From Nitrospirota bacterium (GTDB taxonomy: Bacteria; Nitrospirota; Nitrospiria; Nitrospirales; Nitrospiraceae): DNA of 64,000 nucleotides. The DNA lies in the NCBI GenBank assembly GCA_026387665.1, contig JAPLLG010000009.1, positions 1-64,000 of the forward strand, read 5' to 3'. The position numbers and the translations under genes were made by a program. Of the stretch, positions 30,076 through 62,738 are shown one piece after another. Every line of letters starts with the position of its first letter. The stretch's first letter is position 1. The notes beneath the pieces were generated by a model. The model saw nothing but the letters and a program-made list of their open reading frames with translations, was not told the DNA's origin and searched no databases.

Positions 30076-30169
30076 CGGGTAGCCTGAGTGCCCTTCTTGC
30101 TCGCAGAACGCGCACATGCAGAAAGTGCTCGCTCGATGCGCGCAGTCAAAGGGCACATCAGGCCACCCG
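30076..30169. repeat. Palindromic repeat family B, copy in inverted orientation
   Basis: Arms CGGGTAGCCTGAGTGCCCTT and AAGGGCACATCAGGCCACCCG pair with few mismatches. The core reads TTGCTCGCAGAACGCGCA ... TCGATGCGCGCA, the reverse of other copies. Begins directly after the SDR stop. Confidence 0.85.
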
Positions 30170-30199
30170 CTAAGAAGAGTAAGGAGGAATAGGGAAGCT

Positions 30200-30604
30200 A
30201 TGAAAACAGAGCAAGAACTGACAGCACATAGTCGATTCATTCAGGCACTGCAACACGAGCATCTCACCTGTCCCAAGCCTGGATGCGACGGAGCGATGCA
30301 CAGCAGGGATCTGTCCCAACATACAGATAAGATCAAGACCTATGAAGCCGAATGCGAACGGTGCGGCTTGAAAGAACGGATTGCAGGGAACGAACAAGCC
30401 ACGCCACCCTGGGACAACGCCTCACTGGAACTGATGGCAGACGAGCACCTGATGCATCAGCAACCGGTCTGCCCCTTTGACGACACCCCGGTCGTCTTCA
30501 TCTCCCTGCCCAACCCACGACGGCGCGCACGCTACCGGCTCTGCTGCTTCTACTGCGGCCGCCAAACCGAAATGGACTGGCCACCGGCAGAAACCAAGCG
30601 GTAA
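30200..30604 (+). CDS. Cysteine-rich hypothetical protein with zinc-ribbon-like motifs
   Basis: 134 residues. CPKPGC and CERCG could make one zinc site; CPFDD and CCFYCG near the C-terminus a second. The C-terminal segment RARYRLCCFYCGRQTEMDW is basic and aromatic. Start at 30200 with AAGGAGG/GGGAAG upstream. No family recognised; it could bind nucleic acid or protein. It converges with grxD across repeat B3. Confidence 0.65.
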   Translation: MKTEQELTAHSRFIQALQHEHLTCPKPGCDGAMHSRDLSQHTDKIKTYEAECERCGLKERIAGNEQATPPWDNASLELMADEHLMHQQPVCPFDDTPVVFISLPNPRRRARYRLCCFYCGRQTEMDWPPAETKR

Positions 30605-31750: not shown

Positions 31751-32185
31751 ATGAGTGAGTTCAAATCCGGGTTCTTCATCTCGGGAGAAGCGTGCAACGG
31801 GCGGGTCCTCATAGTGGACGACGAGCCGGACATTCGCAAAGTCGTGAAGATGACCTTGCAGAAGGCCGGCTACGAAGTCTTGGAGGCGGAAAACGGAGAG
31901 AAGGCCATCGAGACCATCAATTCCGGAGAAAACCGGCTGCTCCTCGACGTCGTCATCTGCGACATTCGCATGCCGAAGATCAATGGAGTCGAGGCGATTG
32001 CCTACTTCCGAAGCAACTACCCCCACGTCCCGCTCATCGTGCTGACCGGCTTCCCGGACACAGATATGGCGGCCTCTTTTCTCCGGCAGGGCGTGGTAGA
32101 TTATCTCGTCAAGCCAGTCGAGGGAGAGAAACTGCGATCAGCCGTTGCGCGGGCCATGGAACAACGGGAACTTGCACGGCTGTAA
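31751..32185 (+). CDS. Stand-alone response regulator receiver
   Basis: 144 residues, one CheY-like domain with no output. Acidic pair VDDEPD, phospho-acceptor Asp in VVICDIRMP, Thr/Ser switch region VLTGFP and Lys in YLVKPVEG. A 20-residue N-terminal extension precedes it. AAGGAGG ribosome site. Followed at 87 nt by a Rossmann-histidine kinase, so it is the likely phosphate acceptor for one or both kinases of this cluster. Confidence 0.93.
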   Translation: MSEFKSGFFISGEACNGRVLIVDDEPDIRKVVKMTLQKAGYEVLEAENGEKAIETINSGENRLLLDVVICDIRMPKINGVEAIAYFRSNYPHVPLIVLTGFPDTDMAASFLRQGVVDYLVKPVEGEKLRSAVARAMEQRELARL

Positions 32186-32272: not shown

Positions 32273-33325
32273 ATGGACAGCTTCGACCGGACAAAGGTCG
32301 CCATTCTTGGAGCGGGGCGAGGCGGCCGCGCGCTGCTGGATCTGCTGCACCAAATCCCGTCAATCGAGATCGTCGGCATTGCAGACCGTGACCCTGACGC
32401 ACCAGGGCTGCAGCGAGCGCGGGAGTTTCACGTTCCTGTCACCACCGATGTGCCAACCCTCATCCGCGCCCAGGGCGTGAGCCTGATCATGGATGTCACG
32501 GGCGATCCAGCGATGGAAACGTACCTGCGCGCCCACAAACCTCCGACTGCAGACATCCTCAGTGGATCGGCCTCCCGGCTGCTGTGGGAACTGGTGCAGC
32601 ACGAATCCAAACTCGAAGCTGAACTCCTCCAGGCAGAAAAGCTCGCGGGCATCGGCTCATTCGCTGCGGGAATCGCGCATGACATCAATAATCCCCTGCA
32701 GCTCATTATGGGCCTGGCGGAAAACTTGGCTGAGGAACGCGACCTGGCTTCCGTCCACGAACAAGCCCAGGAGATTATCGAGGCGGTCAAACGGACGAGC
32801 GCCATCTGCCGGGACCTCACCCGTTACTCACGGCGCGCCTCTCCCCATGAGGACGTGCTCATTTCTCTCAACGGGAAGCTGGACGAGGCACTGAAAATCG
32901 CGCGCTATGCCTCCAGCTTCCACGATATCGAGATGATCAAAAACTACGAGCCAGGCGCCGCCGTCAAAGGCAACCCGGATGAGCTCCTGCACGTCTTCGT
33001 CAACCTGATTACGAACGCGGTCCATGCCATGGAGCAGGTGGGCGGCACCTTGACGCTGGGAACCCAGATCCTTGACGGTCAAGTCAATATTCGAATCTCC
33101 GATACGGGATACGGCATTGCCCAGGACAAAATCCCCGAGATTTTCGAGCCGTTTTTCACGACGAAGGCCCCGGGCAAGGGCACGGGGCTGGGACTCTATA
33201 ATGTCAAAACCATCGTCAATAAAATGCAGGGCATGATTACAGTCGAGAGCATGCTCGATAAGGGCACCACCTTTACCGTGACCTTCCCCAGGGCCGTGTC
33301 GGCAGAACAAGGATGTCCGTCATGA
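32273..33325 (+). CDS. Soluble histidine kinase with N-terminal Rossmann (NAD-binding-like) domain
   Basis: 350 residues. Residues 1-100 form a dinucleotide-binding Rossmann unit like those of GFO/IDH/MocA or homoserine-dehydrogenase enzymes: [17 protein letters not shown] (GxGxxG), [14 protein letters not shown] (acidic end of beta 2) and [12 protein letters not shown] short coiled linker leads to HisKA with His in [10 protein letters not shown] (about 150) and HATPase with [14 protein letters not shown] and [10 protein letters not shown]. No membrane segment. It may sense NAD(H) or a nucleotide, an inference from the fold. ATGA overlap with the next kinase gene. Confidence 0.9.
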
Positions 33326-35841
33326 GTCCCACGCGCCCCCCGTCTCACGCTGCAACGAGGTGGGGGCTCCAGCTCAAACTGATTCTGGCCATGTTGCTGG
33401 TGGGAGTCGTGCCCCTCATCGTGGGTCTCGGTCTCGCATTTTGGCAAGGCTCGCGCGAAATCCAGACCGTCAACGGCGAAAACTTCAAGGCCCTGGCCGA
33501 AGAGACGGCGCGAAAAGTCGACCTCCTGATGTCGGATGAAGTCGCACGAACCTCACGGATTGCGGCAGACCCTGCCATCATCCGTGAGCTGGAGCAACGG
33601 CGCGATGCCCTGCTAAACATGACGGAGGATGAACGCCGCCGCGCAATGGACGGGCTCAAGAAAGGCTGGGAAGCCAAAAATCCCGCAACAGTCCAGGCCA
33701 TTACGGGCAGCCACATGGCCGGCCTCATTCAGGAATATTTCTCGGGAGCCAAGAGCGAAGCCGACCAACTGATTCCGCAAGTCGTCCGGTCTGCCACCAA
33801 ACTGTTGTATATCACCGACATGGAGGGCCACCTGGTCGCGTCATTGACCACCCTGCCTCCCATTGCCAACAAAGACCAGGCCTGGTGGACCGGCGCCTTC
33901 CATCGCGGGGTCGGCCAGCTCTTCATCGAAGACGTGCACTTCGACGAACGCGTCCAGACCTATGTCATCAGCATCTCGCTGCCCATTATGGATCGCATCC
34001 GGTATGAAGCCATCGGCGTGATCCATCGCGTGATCGACGCCAAGGAATTTTTCTCGCCCTCGCTCGCGCCCATTCGCTTCGGCAAGACCGGGCATGTGAT
34101 GCTGATCGACCATCGCGGCATCGTCATCAGCTGCCCCATTCTGCCGACCGGCCTCCCGCTCTCCGATGCACAGCTCATTCCCCTCGTCACGCCCCTGCAC
34201 CCAGGCTGGATCAGTGCGCCAAGCGATGGCCACGGGGGGACCTCCACCTCGATTATCGGATTCGCCCCCGTGCCGGAAACCAGCCGCGCCACCAACGGCG
34301 CGCTGGACAAAGGCTCCTGGCACAGCTTCGTCTGGCAAGCCTCCGACGAACTCTTTGCCCCGATCCATCACTTCCTCACCTGGATGGCCCTATTCAGTCT
34401 GGTCTCCGTCGGATTGATGGCGGCCCTCGGCTACCTGGCGGCCAATCGGATCGTCACGCCGGTGCGCCGATTACAGGCTGCGGCGCAATTGGTCGGGCGC
34501 GGTGAACTGCATGAGCCCATCGACATTCGGACCGGCGATGAGATCCAGGACCTGGCCGATGAATTCAACCGCATGAATCACCAATTGGAAGCGGCCTTTG
34601 CGGGCCTGACCGATCAAGTGACCATCAAAACCCAACAAGTGGAGTCCCTGCTCCATTCAACGGACCAGATCCTGGATGCCGTTCCAACCCCGATCGTCAT
34701 GGTCGATCACAACGAGCAGGTGCGGTACATCAATCGAGTCGGACGAGGCTCCTTTGAAACCATCCTGAATGGGAGCCACGACGTCCCCTTGTTTGATCTG
34801 TTCCCCGTCGATACCGCAACACGAGAGCGGCTCCGAACAGAATTCACACGTGTACGGAATGGAGAGAATGCCGCGGTCGCCGCGGTGACTGAAGAGGCCG
34901 CCGTCCGCAGCACGATCCGTGACCCGTTACGCCCGACGGCGGACGGGGCAGAAGCCGGCAGCCAGCAAGAAATTCAGATTGGGCCCCGGCGGTATCACTA
35001 TCAATGGTTCCACCTGGCGGGAGGGAATCAGGAGGAAGACCGGATCGGCCTGATCTTCAGGGACACGACGGACGCCAGCCGGCTCCAAGAGCAACTGATC
35101 CAGTCCGAAAAATCCGGCAGCCTCGGGACCCTCACAGCCGGGATCGGACATGAATTGAACAATCCGCTCTTCGGCATTCTCGGACTGGGAGAAGCCATTG
35201 GAGAAGAAGCCAATCTCGATCGCGCCAAATCCTACGCCCGCGACATCGTCCAGCATGGCCGCCGCATGGCCGCGACCATTCGAGACTTTACCGGAGTCAC
35301 GAGCCGCGAGTCATCGGACCAGCGGCAACCGGTGCACCTCGAACAGGAACTCGACCAGGCCCTCGATACCCTCACGGGCAACCTCAATCCTTCAGAATTC
35401 ACGATCGAGAAAACCTATGCGGGGGACAGCTGTGTGCTGGCGCTCCCAGACCAACTCAGACAGGCCTTCACGAACGTGTTGATGAATGCCATCCAGGCGA
35501 TGAAGGGCCGAGGGACCTTACGTCTCTCGACCTCCCGCACCGATAGCTCTATCGTCATCACCATCGCCGATTCCGGCCCCGGCATTCCGAAACAATACTT
35601 ATCAAAACTGTTCGATCCGTTCTTTACCACCAAGGAGCAAGGCGAGGGATCAGGGCTCGGCCTGACCGTGGCGCACCGCATCATCAAGAGATTTGGAGGG
35701 GAGATCAGGATTGAGAGCCAGGAAGGGAGCGGCACCACCTGCAGCATCACCCTTCCGGCGATCCCTCTTCTGCTACCCCCACAGGAGGCTTCATGTACCG
35801 AATCAACGGCTCGCTCTACGCAACAGCCCTCATCCTCCTAG
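33322..35841 (+). CDS. Membrane histidine kinase (Cache-HAMP-PAS-HisKA-HATPase)
   Basis: 839 residues. Membrane segments at about 18-40 and 350-372 bracket a periplasmic dCache sensor; HAMP follows (NRIVTPVRRLQAAAQ), then PAS (AVPTPIVMVDHNEQVRYIN), HisKA with His in GIGHELNNPL and HATPase with NAIQAMKG, DSGPGIP and GEGSGLGL. The ATG at 33322 overlaps the stop of the Rossmann kinase (ATGA); an ATG at 33313 is also in frame. The last 16 codons overlap the start of the DUF3365 gene. No receiver domain; the adjacent stand-alone receiver is the likely target. Confidence 0.92.
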   Translation: MSPTRPPSHAATRWGLQLKLILAMLLVGVVPLIVGLGLAFWQGSREIQTVNGENFKALAEETARKVDLLMSDEVARTSRIAADPAIIRELEQRRDALLNMTEDERRRAMDGLKKGWEAKNPATVQAITGSHMAGLIQEYFSGAKSEADQLIPQVVRSATKLLYITDMEGHLVASLTTLPPIANKDQAWWTGAFHRGVGQLFIEDVHFDERVQTYVISISLPIMDRIRYEAIGVIHRVIDAKEFFSPSLAPIRFGKTGHVMLIDHRGIVISCPILPTGLPLSDAQLIPLVTPLHPGWISAPSDGHGGTSTSIIGFAPVPETSRATNGALDKGSWHSFVWQASDELFAPIHHFLTWMALFSLVSVGLMAALGYLAANRIVTPVRRLQAAAQLVGRGELHEPIDIRTGDEIQDLADEFNRMNHQLEAAFAGLTDQVTIKTQQVESLLHSTDQILDAVPTPIVMVDHNEQVRYINRVGRGSFETILNGSHDVPLFDLFPVDTATRERLRTEFTRVRNGENAAVAAVTEEAAVRSTIRDPLRPTADGAEAGSQQEIQIGPRRYHYQWFHLAGGNQEEDRIGLIFRDTTDASRLQEQLIQSEKSGSLGTLTAGIGHELNNPLFGILGLGEAIGEEANLDRAKSYARDIVQHGRRMAATIRDFTGVTSRESSDQRQPVHLEQELDQALDTLTGNLNPSEFTIEKTYAGDSCVLALPDQLRQAFTNVLMNAIQAMKGRGTLRLSTSRTDSSIVITIADSGPGIPKQYLSKLFDPFFTTKEQGEGSGLGLTVAHRIIKRFGGEIRIESQEGSGTTCSITLPAIPLLLPPQEASCTESTARSTQQPSSS

Positions 35842-36386
35842 TGTGTGGGCTATGGTGGGGGCCTGACATACTGTCCGCCAAGGAACGCCCCGCATCGGCC
35901 GGCATCCCGCCGGAGAAAGTGGCGGCGTATGTCTATGCCGTCATCAAGGCCGACCGCACAGTCTACACAACGGAGATCGTCAATCGGCTTCAAGAAAAAG
36001 GTGTCATCATGGCGTCTGAACATTGGGAGCAGGAGAACGCGCTCATGTTGCCAGCCCAGTTTCTCCATCATTCGAGCAAACTGGCAGCCGAGAGCGGAAG
36101 CGGGATCCGCTATCGGCTGATCAGTCTCTGGCCGATTTATCGGCGCAACGCTCCGGCGAGCGACCTGGAACGGAGCGCGTTGGAGTCTCTCAGCAAGAAT
36201 CCCGACTGGCCGGTCACGGGGATCGTGACCAGTGGGCGCAAGCAGTACTTTCAAGCCATCTATCCAGACCTCGCGATCTCACCGGTCTGCGTCAGCTGTC
36301 ACAACAACCATCGGCTCAGCCCGAAGCGGGACTTCAAGCTCAACGATGTCATGGGTGGAATCACGATCACCATTCCGCTGGAATAA
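35793..36386 (+). CDS. Periplasmic single-heme DUF3365 (Tll0287-like) protein
   Basis: 197 residues. Hydrophobic N-terminal signal (about 8-28) followed by a soluble domain with LPAQFLHHSS, YRLISLWPIYRRNAP and the heme c site CVSCHNNH near 165, ending DVMGGITITIPL. DUF3365 is known as a single-heme sensor-like fold that resembles a PAS/Cache domain. AGGAGG precedes the ATG. The gene overlaps the histidine kinase gene by 49 nt in another frame, so this heme protein is likely the redox or gas sensor partner of that kinase (inference). Confidence 0.9.
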   Translation: MYRINGSLYATALILLVCGLWWGPDILSAKERPASAGIPPEKVAAYVYAVIKADRTVYTTEIVNRLQEKGVIMASEHWEQENALMLPAQFLHHSSKLAAESGSGIRYRLISLWPIYRRNAPASDLERSALESLSKNPDWPVTGIVTSGRKQYFQAIYPDLAISPVCVSCHNNHRLSPKRDFKLNDVMGGITITIPLE

Positions 36387-51403: not shown

Positions 51404-52051
51404 TTAGCGAACCCAGGGAGCAGGCACCGTCGGATTCGGGATCGCCCGCTCGATCGGTCCCACTGGCCGTCTGGACGGCTCCGGTCCCAGAGGGAGCCCT
51501 TCCGGCGAGGCATTCCGATTGAGACGGACGATGATGCCGCCCATCACATCCCAGCGGCGAAAATTCTGGCGTGGCGCCTGCGGGTGCTGATTATGGCAAT
51601 CCACGCAGGACTGAACGATCGCGAGATCCGCCGAGATGGCTTTGAACTGATCACCGTCCACGAAACTGAGCACGCGCACATCGCGATTCTTCTCCAACTG
51701 AACGAGCGCATCGCTTTCGGCAAGAGTCCTGGGACGATTCGCAGGATTGAGCGGGCTCAGGCCGATCAAGCCCATTTCAAACCCGTTCACTTGCGCGGCA
51801 GCCGATTTCACAAATTGAGCCGGAAGCGGCATGAAGTGCGAATCCTTCTGCCAGTCTTCCTTCGGCACGACCCCGCTTTCCCTCAGATGCTCGACCACGT
51901 CCAGCACATAGGCCGTGCGAAACGCCTTGACGATTTCCAGGATGTACCGGGCCGTCTGATCGAACGTAGGATCAGCCGCCTTGGCGGACCAGGCGAAGAG
52001 GGTGAGACCGACAGACAGGACAAGGATGAGAACCGGGCGACCGAAGTTCAA
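51404..52051 (-). CDS. Periplasmic single-heme DUF3365 protein, second copy
   Basis: 215 residues. Signal peptide (VLILVLSVGLTLFAWSAKA), then the DUF3365 domain with LPAQFVKSAA, GLIGLSPLNPANRP and heme site CVDCHNQH near 165, ending WDVMGGIIVRL. A Pro-rich tail of 35 residues is unique to this copy. The start is probably TTG at 52051, which has AGGAGG five nt upstream; no ATG fits. A paralogue (35793-36386) lies in a kinase cluster. This one has no kinase neighbour. Confidence 0.88.
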   Translation of the reverse strand: MNFGRPVLILVLSVGLTLFAWSAKAADPTFDQTARYILEIVKAFRTAYVLDVVEHLRESGVVPKEDWQKDSHFMPLPAQFVKSAAAQVNGFEMGLIGLSPLNPANRPRTLAESDALVQLEKNRDVRVLSFVDGDQFKAISADLAIVQSCVDCHNQHPQAPRQNFRRWDVMGGIIVRLNRNASPEGLPLGPEPSRRPVGPIERAIPNPTVPAPWVR

Positions 52052-54409: not shown

Positions 54410-55243
54410 ATGAACAAGCTGACGCAGGCCAAACGAGTTCAGATCATCGCCGCCTTGGTTGAGGGCAACAGCATCCGCGCTACTTGCCGCATGACTGGCG
54501 CAGCGAAGGGCACTATCCTGAAACTCTTGGCTGACCTCGGTACGGCCTGCGCTGCCTATCAGGATCGCGCTCTTCGCAATCTTCCCTGTAAGAAAATTCA
54601 GTGCGATGAAATCTGGTCGTTTTGCTACGCGAAAGAAAAGAACGTCCCTGAAGAGATGAAGGGCAAGCTCGGCTTTGGTGATGTGTGGACCTGGACGGCC
54701 ATCGACGCAGACAGCAAGTTGATCGTGTCATATCTGGTCGGTGGACGGAGCGCAGAGTACGCGAAAAAGTTTATCGACGATCTGGCCTCACGCTTGGCCC
54801 ATCGCGTGCAACTGACTACGGATGGGCACAAAGCCTATCTCAGGGCCATTGAAGGCGCGTTCGGTGCGGATGTGGACTACGCCATGCTGGAAAAGATTTA
54901 TGCGGCTCCGCCACGCGACGGACAGGCACGGTATAGCCCTGCGGATTGTTGCGGAGCGAGGAAGATTAAGGTGTCAGGCAATCCAGATTTGGCCAAGGCA
55001 TCAACGAGCTTTGTGGAACGACAAAACATGACCATGCGTATGGGCATGCGACGAATGACCCGCCTGACCAATGCCTTTAGCAAGAAGATTGAGAACCAAG
55101 CCCATGCCGTGGCCCTGCATTTCATGCACTACAACTTCGCCAGGATTCACCAAACGCTCCGAGTCACGCCAGCGATGGAGGCTGGAATTGCGAGTCATGT
55201 GTGGAGCTTGGGGGAAATCGCAGGATTGCTCGATTCAAACTGA
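54410..55243 (+). CDS. IS1-family DDE transposase
   Basis: 277 residues. N-terminal HTH (VQIIAALVEGNSIRATCRMTG), then catalytic residues Asp in IQCDEIW, Asp in TTDGHKAY and Glu in SFVERQN, with MRRMTRLTNAFSKK and FMHYNFARIHQTLR. A single unshifted frame, unlike classical IS1 InsAB, as in the larger IS1-type branch. The coding end reaches into the right inverted repeat. Acts in trans on the 19-bp ends described here. Confidence 0.93.
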   Translation: MNKLTQAKRVQIIAALVEGNSIRATCRMTGAAKGTILKLLADLGTACAAYQDRALRNLPCKKIQCDEIWSFCYAKEKNVPEEMKGKLGFGDVWTWTAIDADSKLIVSYLVGGRSAEYAKKFIDDLASRLAHRVQLTTDGHKAYLRAIEGAFGADVDYAMLEKIYAAPPRDGQARYSPADCCGARKIKVSGNPDLAKASTSFVERQNMTMRMGMRRMTRLTNAFSKKIENQAHAVALHFMHYNFARIHQTLRVTPAMEAGIASHVWSLGEIAGLLDSN

Positions 55244-59906: not shown

Positions 59907-62738
59907 TCATTTAAACGCCTCATCTTTTTCCGCCCCTCCCCGCGCCTTCCACTCCAAGTCGTAATATTCCCCCCGATCCCTCGCCCAGGGATCGAACACA
60001 TTCACCACCCCCTGCAGCTCGCCTGCCAGTTCCGGCATCGTTCGCATGAGCACGCGTTTCATGGGGGAGTCGGGTCTCTCAGGCCCAGGCCCATTGTTCG
60101 TGACCCACTCGACGCCGAGCTTGCTGTAAAACTCCGGGCGGAAACTGGAAGTGAAGAACCGGTCGCTGAAGAGGCGGCGCGAGGCGTTGAGAATGAACAC
60201 GACAAACTGGGTTTCCGAAATGGCGAAGCCATCCGGCCGCCGGAACTCCGCCAGCCAGCCCACCACCGTATCGACGTCCTCGATATTGTCAATCAAACTG
60301 CCGTTCGGATGGCCCAGGCAATCGTTAATGTCCGATCTATCGTCGTTCTTCTGCGCCTTGGTGATTTCCTTAGAATCATCACACTGGTGCTGCCCATAGA
60401 CTTCCCGCAAGGTCTTCACGAACTGCTCCTGCTCGTTCCGAGTCGGTGAGTTCTTGGGTAACCGTACATCGATGAAGTCATCGAAGCTGGTCAATTGCTT
60501 CAACCCATACTGGCGGCGGAATTCGTTGTAGCGGGGAATGCCCCGCTCCCGGTCCCGGATGAGATCGAGCGCCGCCACGTCGATCTGCTGCGTGGAGGAT
60601 TGCAGGCGAGGCAGCTTGAGGTTCTGCAAAAACTGCGGATGGTTCTGGAGCGTCAGCAACCCCAGCCTCTGGCGACCCAGGCTGAGCGCCCAATTGGCCA
60701 GCCCATTTTGATGCATGGCCTCGGTGGCCTTGCCCCGGAAGGTCTCGATCACCGGCACCTTGCTCCGAATGACGTTCGGCTCCTTGTTCCACTCACGATA
60801 TTCCAGCAGGTCCGGCAATAAGGGATGCAGCCGGTAGACCGAGATGAACTCCTCAGGAAAATTGAAGGGGGAGCCGAAATGGTTGACGCCGCCGTTGATG
60901 TCCTCGTCGTTTGCGAGAGACCAGAGATCCTTTCTATTCCGATCGAACAGGGCATGGATCGGCGCCCCCTCATACCGATGGTTGCCCAGCCCGAAGATGC
61001 CAGGCCCTCCGGCCAGTGCTGCGTAGCGGCTATTCGCTTTCCTGGCATCCTCCGAATCTTCAAGGCGGCGCACGACTTCCTTCAGCGCATCCGCCACCGC
61101 CTCATGCTCGTGGAAGACGCCCTGCCAGTTGGCGTTCATGCCCCGGTTCAAGGGCTCGTTGTAGAGCAGTTGCGTGGTCCATTCGATCGTGTGGATCTTG
61201 GCGATCTCTGCCGCGACGACCAGCCGGGCGATCTCGAACAATTCCTGCGGCGTGACCTCTCTGTAGCGGATGACGTGAGCCGGGTCGGCAGGATTTCTCA
61301 AGCCGCTGTCCGCCTCGGGGGTTTGGGCTGCCTGCTTCCGGAATTCCTCGACGAAACCATTGTGCTCTCGCGCGAAGACGTTGTGATAGAAGCTCAGCCC
61401 GATGGACCAGTTGTCGGGAAAGGCCGTGGCTTCCTGGCCGGACCATTGCGGATTGATCGGATCGCCTGCTTCGAAGACCGGCAGGTAGCCCAGCTTGTCG
61501 CCCGCCCCCTCCCGGACCGACAGCAGCAATAATTTGGCCGGATCGTTAGGGTCGCGCTTCACTCGCTTGCCGGACCGTTCGTCGTAGCCATAGAGCTGCG
61601 AGGCGTCCCACCAGGCCGTGACATGGTTGCGGGTCGTCTTCTGCGCCCTCGTCAGATAGGTCTTGCCTCCCTGCGTGAAGGTCTCAGGCTTCGTGCCCTC
61701 GGCAATGAGTGCCGCGTCGATCTTGTCGCCGGGGCGGCAGCCCAGTTTCTGGATCTCCGCTCCTGTCAGAGGCTGCTCGACGTTCTTGACCAGTTGCGTG
61801 GCGCAGCCGACGGACTTCCACTCAGGCTGGTTATGTCCCTCCTCCAGATGCGTGAACCAGTCATGGATCATGAACTGGATCCAGAAGGCCGCCAGCACAT
61901 TGAAGAAGGGCGCGGGCCTATACTCGCAGTGCGCCTCTTTCGAGTCGCCCGGCAGGCCGTAGCCCTCGCGGCATGTGGCCTGCGACGATTGCTGCCGCGT
62001 GAAGAGCTTGCGGCTGATCACTTGCGGGTCCGGTTTCAAGAGCCCGATGCGATCTCCATGGCGATTCTTCGTCACCTCAGTCAGCCCCAGATCGGGGAAG
62101 GTGCTGTCGAACTCCACGTTCCGCGCAAAGAGCTGATAGGTCGAGCCCATCAGCGGGTTGAAGATGTCGTTGCATATGCCCGTCTGCGTGCGGAAACGGA
62201 TCAGCTCGCCCCGGCAGACCTGTTTCGTGCCGACATCCTGGAAATTGGGATGGGTCTGGGGCAGCTGCATGTCCGGCCAGATTTTCAACACTGGGCCGGC
62301 CTTGCCGTCGCGGCCTGTGACGTAGGATTTATAGGTCCCGTTGTTGTCGAAAAGGTTGAACTTGATGAGTTCGATCCGCTGCAGCTCTAACTCATAGAGC
62401 GCGCCGTTGATCCCATGCGCATTGGGACCGATGTACTTGGCATCGGACAGAACATGGAGTGGAACTTTTGACGTGACGTCACCCGCGCCCCAGAAGTTCG
62501 GCCAATCCAGCCAAGGCCCCTGACTGAATGCCACGGCACGGTCTCCTCCGAGACAACGAGCCCGCTCCTCGGGAACCTTTCCAAGGAAGCGCTCCTCCCT
62601 GGTTTTTGCGACTCGCTGGATGTCGCCATGTGCCAGCACTTTCAGGCAGGCGATCCCGGACTCCACAACATCGCATCCGCTGAGCAGGCACAGCCCCGTC
62701 ATGACTGCGAACATTGATGGGCGACGTATCTGTCTCAT
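59907..62738 (-). CDS. Animal heme-peroxidase/cyclooxygenase-like lipoprotein
   Basis: 943 residues. Signal with lipobox LLSGC near residue 22, so an exported lipoprotein. The catalytic region (about 270-760) has the distal His in QFMIHDWFTH, ASQLYGYDE, NVFAREHNGF, and proximal His in EIAKIHTIEWTTQLLY, followed by LFDRNRKDLWSLANDEDINGG-type loops. This is the peroxidase-cyclooxygenase superfamily, close in pattern to alpha-dioxygenase/linoleate diol synthase enzymes that oxygenate fatty acids. The first 250 residues are not recognised. GAGGAGGG before the ATG at 62738. Confidence 0.9.
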   Translation of the reverse strand: MRQIRRPSMFAVMTGLCLLSGCDVVESGIACLKVLAHGDIQRVAKTREERFLGKVPEERARCLGGDRAVAFSQGPWLDWPNFWGAGDVTSKVPLHVLSDAKYIGPNAHGINGALYELELQRIELIKFNLFDNNGTYKSYVTGRDGKAGPVLKIWPDMQLPQTHPNFQDVGTKQVCRGELIRFRTQTGICNDIFNPLMGSTYQLFARNVEFDSTFPDLGLTEVTKNRHGDRIGLLKPDPQVISRKLFTRQQSSQATCREGYGLPGDSKEAHCEYRPAPFFNVLAAFWIQFMIHDWFTHLEEGHNQPEWKSVGCATQLVKNVEQPLTGAEIQKLGCRPGDKIDAALIAEGTKPETFTQGGKTYLTRAQKTTRNHVTAWWDASQLYGYDERSGKRVKRDPNDPAKLLLLSVREGAGDKLGYLPVFEAGDPINPQWSGQEATAFPDNWSIGLSFYHNVFAREHNGFVEEFRKQAAQTPEADSGLRNPADPAHVIRYREVTPQELFEIARLVVAAEIAKIHTIEWTTQLLYNEPLNRGMNANWQGVFHEHEAVADALKEVVRRLEDSEDARKANSRYAALAGGPGIFGLGNHRYEGAPIHALFDRNRKDLWSLANDEDINGGVNHFGSPFNFPEEFISVYRLHPLLPDLLEYREWNKEPNVIRSKVPVIETFRGKATEAMHQNGLANWALSLGRQRLGLLTLQNHPQFLQNLKLPRLQSSTQQIDVAALDLIRDRERGIPRYNEFRRQYGLKQLTSFDDFIDVRLPKNSPTRNEQEQFVKTLREVYGQHQCDDSKEITKAQKNDDRSDINDCLGHPNGSLIDNIEDVDTVVGWLAEFRRPDGFAISETQFVVFILNASRRLFSDRFFTSSFRPEFYSKLGVEWVTNNGPGPERPDSPMKRVLMRTMPELAGELQGVVNVFDPWARDRGEYYDLEWKARGGAEKDEAFK

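Follow-up and report, generated by a model that had tools for sequence, protein, structure and literature searches.

The window analysed here, the first 64,000 nucleotides of contig JAPLLG010000009.1 from a Nitrospirota bacterium, carries at positions 32273-33325 of the plus strand a gene for a histidine kinase of 350 amino acids (P0001), recognized by translation and Pfam. The frame begins with ATG, has no internal stop and is preceded by a purine-rich GGAAGAGG just 5' of the start. Its product consists, in this order, of a Rossmann domain (about residues 6-98), a single linking helix, a HisKA domain (PF00512; residues 129-189, positions 32657-32839, plus strand) and a HATPase_c domain (PF02518; residues 233-340, positions 32969-33292, plus strand), the latter two scoring 43.9 bits against a Pfam cut-off of 26.9 and 92.4 bits against 26.4, respectively. 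The phospho-acceptor H136, within an AHDINNP motif, and the N, G1, F and G2 boxes, which together characterize a HisKA sensor kinase, were all located. An earlier note on this DNA had described a direct fusion to HisKA-HATPase without PAS, GAF or membrane parts, and indeed no such domain or segment was found in P0001, which is a soluble, cytoplasmic sensor histidine kinase.

Directly upstream, at 31751-32185 on the plus strand, lies the gene of a single-domain response regulator (Pfam Response_reg). Such a regulator adjoins the Rossmann kinase in all orthologous loci whose sequence extends far enough upstream (38 distinct loci), and the one in the window is the likely partner of P0001. Downstream follow a second histidine kinase (33313-35841, plus strand), in which Pfam recognizes dCache, HAMP, weak PAS, HisKA and HATPase domains and whose start overlaps the end of the P0001 gene by a few bases, and a Tll0287-like protein (35793-36386, plus strand; PF11845) with a CxxCH haem-binding motif; these two genes are conserved neighbours in 10 and 9 long loci, respectively. 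The order of regulator, Rossmann kinase, dCache/HAMP kinase and Tll0287-like gene is kept in the window's own family and in some others. A signalling operon beside a haem-type protein is in keeping with a redox theme and is no proof of one.

Several other frames of the window were noted in passing. Near the operon, also in several relatives, a 162-residue protein (30116-30604, plus strand) has several CxxC pairs and the look of a zinc ribbon, and matches no Pfam family above the cut-off. By eye, a second Tll0287-like protein, again with CxxCH, appears to be encoded at 51404-52051 (minus strand), a transposase-like frame lies at 54410-55243 (plus strand), and a frame of 943 amino acids at 59907-62738 (minus strand) resembles an animal-type haem peroxidase.

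The N-terminal domain of P0001 (32288-32566, plus strand) is confidently predicted to be a classical Rossmann fold, as the earlier note had proposed. An AlphaFold2 model of residues 1-128, for which 47 relatives served as alignment, reached a pLDDT of 86.3 and a pTM of 0.76, and its strands (residues 7-12, 31-37, 71-74 and 94-97), with helices between them, follow the beta-alpha Rossmann order. Among solved structures, the best Foldseek matches were the acylating acetaldehyde dehydrogenases 1nvm (E 3.7e-5) and 7z3s and the NAD complex of GenD2, 6nor; VIA-align gave Z scores of 12.6 for 6nor and 12.4 for 1nvm over 95-97 residues. The motifs of dinucleotide binding reported earlier could be placed precisely: GxGxxG reads G13-A-G15-R-G17-G18 (GAGRGG, 32309-32326, plus strand), and the acidic residue that ends beta 2 is D38 (32384-32386, plus strand). 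After beta 4 comes a DVTG motif (residues 74-77; 32492-32503, plus strand), at which D/N/E, then S/T and G, are conserved. In the modelled secondary structure, one long helix (residues 99-125; 32567-32647, plus strand) leads from the Rossmann domain towards the kinase and carries a family W-x-L motif, the W of which is kept in 210 of 228 relatives.

The closest kin of the domain were sought with profiles as well. In solved structures, profile matches were to an acetaldehyde dehydrogenase (E 1.3e-5) and to Rex 5zz5 (E 6e-5), the acidic position of the domain aligning opposite a Rex Asp. The NCBIfam acetaldehyde dehydrogenase model is matched by 19 of 20 domain members, and Rex models by several. 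P0001 itself stays far below the curated cut-offs of both families, with 28.4 bits against 282.25 for TIGR03215 (acylating acetaldehyde dehydrogenase) and 17.1 bits against 126 for the Rex model NF003995, and no N-terminal HTH of the kind that forms the Rex winged helix was matched by Pfam. Three Pfam families were likewise approached from below the gathering score: DapB_N (22.6 bits against 25.6), GFO_IDH_MocA (PF01408; 21.9 against 24) and NAD_binding_3 (PF03447, the homoserine dehydrogenase family; 16.3 against 24). The kinship suggested in the earlier note is upheld in part, Gfo/Idh proteins being among the nearest relatives; homoserine dehydrogenase was rejected as the nearest, since acylating acetaldehyde dehydrogenase, Gfo/Idh and Rex are all closer.

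Conservation was assessed in 233 distinct copies of the Rossmann domain gathered by profile. Asp or Glu occupies the acidic position after beta 2 in 232 of these 233, GxG is kept in 226 of 230 and the complete GxGxxG in 207 of 230, with an invariant first glycine and exceptions that mostly replace the last one by Cys. Loss of the glycine motif or of the acid in homologues, which would have spoken against the earlier note, was thus not seen. Among 68 representatives less than 60% identical, the acid is kept in 67 and is the sole charged position in the most conserved columns; a profile-based collection is biased to conserved members, a bias that cannot by itself explain a single column held at 99% when others vary. 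Two divergent Rossmann-like kinases, encoded at L077:2898-4025 and L078:3015-4103, have weakened glycine motifs (GAGTNG and GAGPEG) and possibly form a separate or decaying subfamily.

These figures bear on whether the domain still works as an enzyme or as a binding site at all. Its fold is common to Gfo/Idh and related enzymes, so that one might imagine a kinase with a working dehydrogenase attached, which would detect a metabolite by converting it. However, the substrate-binding and catalytic half of the dehydrogenases is absent from P0001, in which the kinase comes directly after the Rossmann domain and only about 100 residues precede the kinase helix, and EKP, the catalytic motif of Gfo/Idh enzymes, occurs in none of the 233 domain relatives; judged from the sequence, this reading is largely excluded and we consider it extremely improbable. 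The same loss of the catalytic half, together with the missing last glycine of some divergent members, could indicate a relic that serves, ligand-free, for dimerization or protein docking, and the conserved surface could instead contact another protein. A pure scaffold would not be expected to hold its nucleotide-contact positions near-invariant in members less than 60% identical, and we regard the relic as improbable. With the beta-2 acid and GxGxxG conserved and EKP lost, the nucleotide site looks selectively kept and the enzyme gone.

The reading that we favour, with some confidence, is that P0001 is a soluble kinase with a dinucleotide-binding Rossmann input, most likely for NAD(H), set by binding or by redox change. 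The choice of NAD(H) draws on the motif and the kin of the domain, NADP(H), CoA or a ligand-free scaffold being the possible alternatives. Against it stand the facts that GxGxxG Rossmann folds also hold NADP, CoA or SAM and that the third glycine is wanting in some divergent relatives, where it is mostly Cys. The fourth place of the glycine motif, R16 in P0001, has a basic side chain (Arg or Lys) in 194 of 232 relatives. NADP-users can have Arg or Lys there too, and R16 therefore cautions against claiming a preference for NAD. A module that binds NADP(H) would report the reductive-biosynthetic state, and a further point for it is that an engineered A12K/D35S inositol dehydrogenase with NADP (4l8v) is among the structural matches. 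In that protein, however, Asp had been replaced by Ser, according to the entry title, at a position presumably equivalent to D38, whereas all but one of the domain relatives have the beta-2 acid, a residue that usually keeps the 2'-phosphate away; NADP(H) thus appears rather unlikely. A different ligand with an adenine moiety, such as CoA or acyl-CoA, is suggested by the closest relatives, CoA-acylating acetaldehyde dehydrogenases, enzymes that also handle CoA, and by weak matches to Pfam CoA_binding in 9 of 20 members. However, the Pfam CoA_binding domain also includes the NAD domain of Rex, and the beta-2 acid suits a ribose diol; we hold this ligand to be unlikely.

Under the favoured reading, with a dinucleotide-binding input that is most likely specific for NAD(H), the C-terminal helix of the Rossmann domain, which runs towards the DHp helix of the kinase, would shift upon binding or with the switch between NAD+ and NADH. 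This movement would set the autophosphorylation of H136, from which the phosphate would pass to the adjacent single-domain response regulator. Coupling through the helix is suggested by its prediction in the model and by the short link to the output in most architectures; the full-length AlphaFold2 model of P0001 is poor (pLDDT 64) and unusable on this point, probably because its alignment had only HisKA_3-type relatives. The domain itself would belong to a family of mobile input modules of the cytoplasm that serve many outputs.

The survey of the architecture called for by the earlier note revealed a widespread module instead of one odd fusion. At least one domain relative is present in 60 of 61 related genomes of the same order, and HisKA and HisKA_3 forms both occur throughout the order; the source genome has a second copy (L009:6444-8211, plus strand) on a HisKA_3 kinase, after which comes a NarL-type regulator. 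Within Nitrospirota, matches at E<=1e-5 were found in 254 of 395 sampled genomes and 99 of 169 genera, and in a second phylum, represented by MAGs deposited as Deltaproteobacteria, in 77 of 198 genomes at E<=1e-5 and 32 of 99 at 1e-10, genome counts that are inflated by the weakest matches (E about 1e-5 to 1e-8, frames of 300-350 amino acids), which are probably real dehydrogenases. Two additional phylum searches led back to this second phylum. A contig scan with a narrower alignment yielded as named members Nitrospira moscoviensis, N. defluvii, Candidatus Manganitrophus and MAGs deposited as Deltaproteobacteria; they are mostly Nitrospirota because the only pattern used in the scan (AKFMW..) is biased towards the HisKA_3 and sigma-54 subfamilies. 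In the clostridium Acetoanaerobium noterae the domain sits on an MCP signalling domain (L304:3998-4780, plus strand; E 2.5e-25), and it therefore occurs in at least three bacterial groups: Nitrospirota, the second phylum and one Clostridia record. That record is labelled plasmid, yet has chromosome-like genes, among them one resembling tyrosyl-tRNA synthetase. A plasmid search with the Deltaproteobacteria-type domain gave no match; another plasmid match (E 8e-4), from Rhodococcus jostii RHA1, is possibly just a conventional dehydrogenase.

The outputs are equally varied. DNA and Pfam together revealed the architectures Rossmann-sigma54-Fis, Rossmann-GGDEF-EAL and Rossmann-GAF-GGDEF, the hybrids Rossmann-GAF-PAS-HK-REC-REC-GGDEF and Rossmann-PAS-HK-REC-GGDEF, and stand-alone Rossmann domains of 130-150 amino acids. 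Forms of the second phylum include a LuxR-type HTH before Rossmann-GAF-GGDEF, Rossmann-PAS-HK and Rossmann-Rossmann-PAS-PAS-HK, with tandem Rossmann domains ahead of PAS and histidine kinase in L289, L290, L281 and L278. On a tree of 172 domains, built from 116 columns and weakly resolved, output type, as labelled, must have changed at least 7 times, where five types would require no fewer than four changes. The domain is most likely a mobile module joined to many signalling outputs and not the product of a single fusion.

A different arrangement was found in L043, L044, L049, L094, L098, L100 and L102, where the Rossmann domain and its helix are inserted in frame inside a receiver, between the Thr-containing and the Lys-containing strands. 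These forms come from seven genomes of at least four genera, and the gene is the counterpart of the response regulator upstream of the Rossmann kinase; a neighbouring Rossmann kinase was not seen in L043, L044 or L049. Once the insert is removed, the two halves align to the regulator of the window, and the acidic pair, the phospho-acceptor Asp, the Thr and the Lys are kept in the six of the seven that were checked, L049 being left out because its 3' end is masked.

An uncatalogued domain found on many kinds of signalling proteins in at least three bacterial groups is probably a general sensor of redox or nucleotide state. Tentatively, and with somewhat less conviction than for P0001 itself, we propose an undescribed promiscuous sensory domain, used like PAS or GAF, that would feed the NAD(H) state into two-component, c-di-GMP, sigma-54 and chemotaxis outputs and, inserted at beta4-alpha4 of a receiver, would make a ligand-gated response regulator. 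To our knowledge, direct bacterial protein sensors of the NADH/NAD+ ratio are few, Rex being the standard one. A search by its DNA-binding domain found no Rex above the cut-off in the 61 related genomes and matched the control genomes, so the NADH-sensing role may be vacant there. Nitrite oxidisers such as Nitrospira make NADH by reverse electron flow; if the module reads NAD(H), the redox state of their nucleotides would act directly on several regulatory outputs. With a named domain model, moreover, many signalling proteins in which the sensor region is still blank would be reannotated. We found no Pfam or NCBIfam model specific to the module. The open literature searched yielded neither a description of it nor a histidine kinase whose sensor domain binds NAD. 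Neither a census of c-di-GMP sensory domains (PMC8846402) nor a paper on the signalling helix (PMC1592074) mentions a Rossmann or Gfo sensor.

Among known systems, cytoplasmic kinases with PAS or GAF domains share with P0001 a HisKA-HATPase core under an N-terminal cytoplasmic sensor, which in P0001 is a Rossmann domain instead. KdpD-type histidine kinases likewise contain a nucleotide-binding domain that is soluble, but KdpD is a membrane kinase and its USP domain belongs to a different family from the Rossmann domain described here. This USP domain is reported to bind c-di-AMP (PMC8214093). The NAD half of acylating acetaldehyde dehydrogenase is the best match in both sequence and structure, whereas P0001 has no catalytic half and lies far under the family cut-off. 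With the NAD domain of Gfo/Idh/MocA proteins P0001 shares the fold, GxGxxG and the beta-2 acid, but it has neither EKP nor the C-terminal substrate domain and scores below the gathering threshold. Rex likewise uses a Rossmann domain for sensing and not for catalysis, and its NAD domain aligns with the profile, acidic position included; in Rex, however, an N-terminal winged helix binds DNA, whereas the output of P0001 is a kinase and that of its relatives many other modules. A Rex-like Rossmann redox sensor and modular cytoplasmic inputs are known parts; their joining, its breadth and the insertion into receivers look new.
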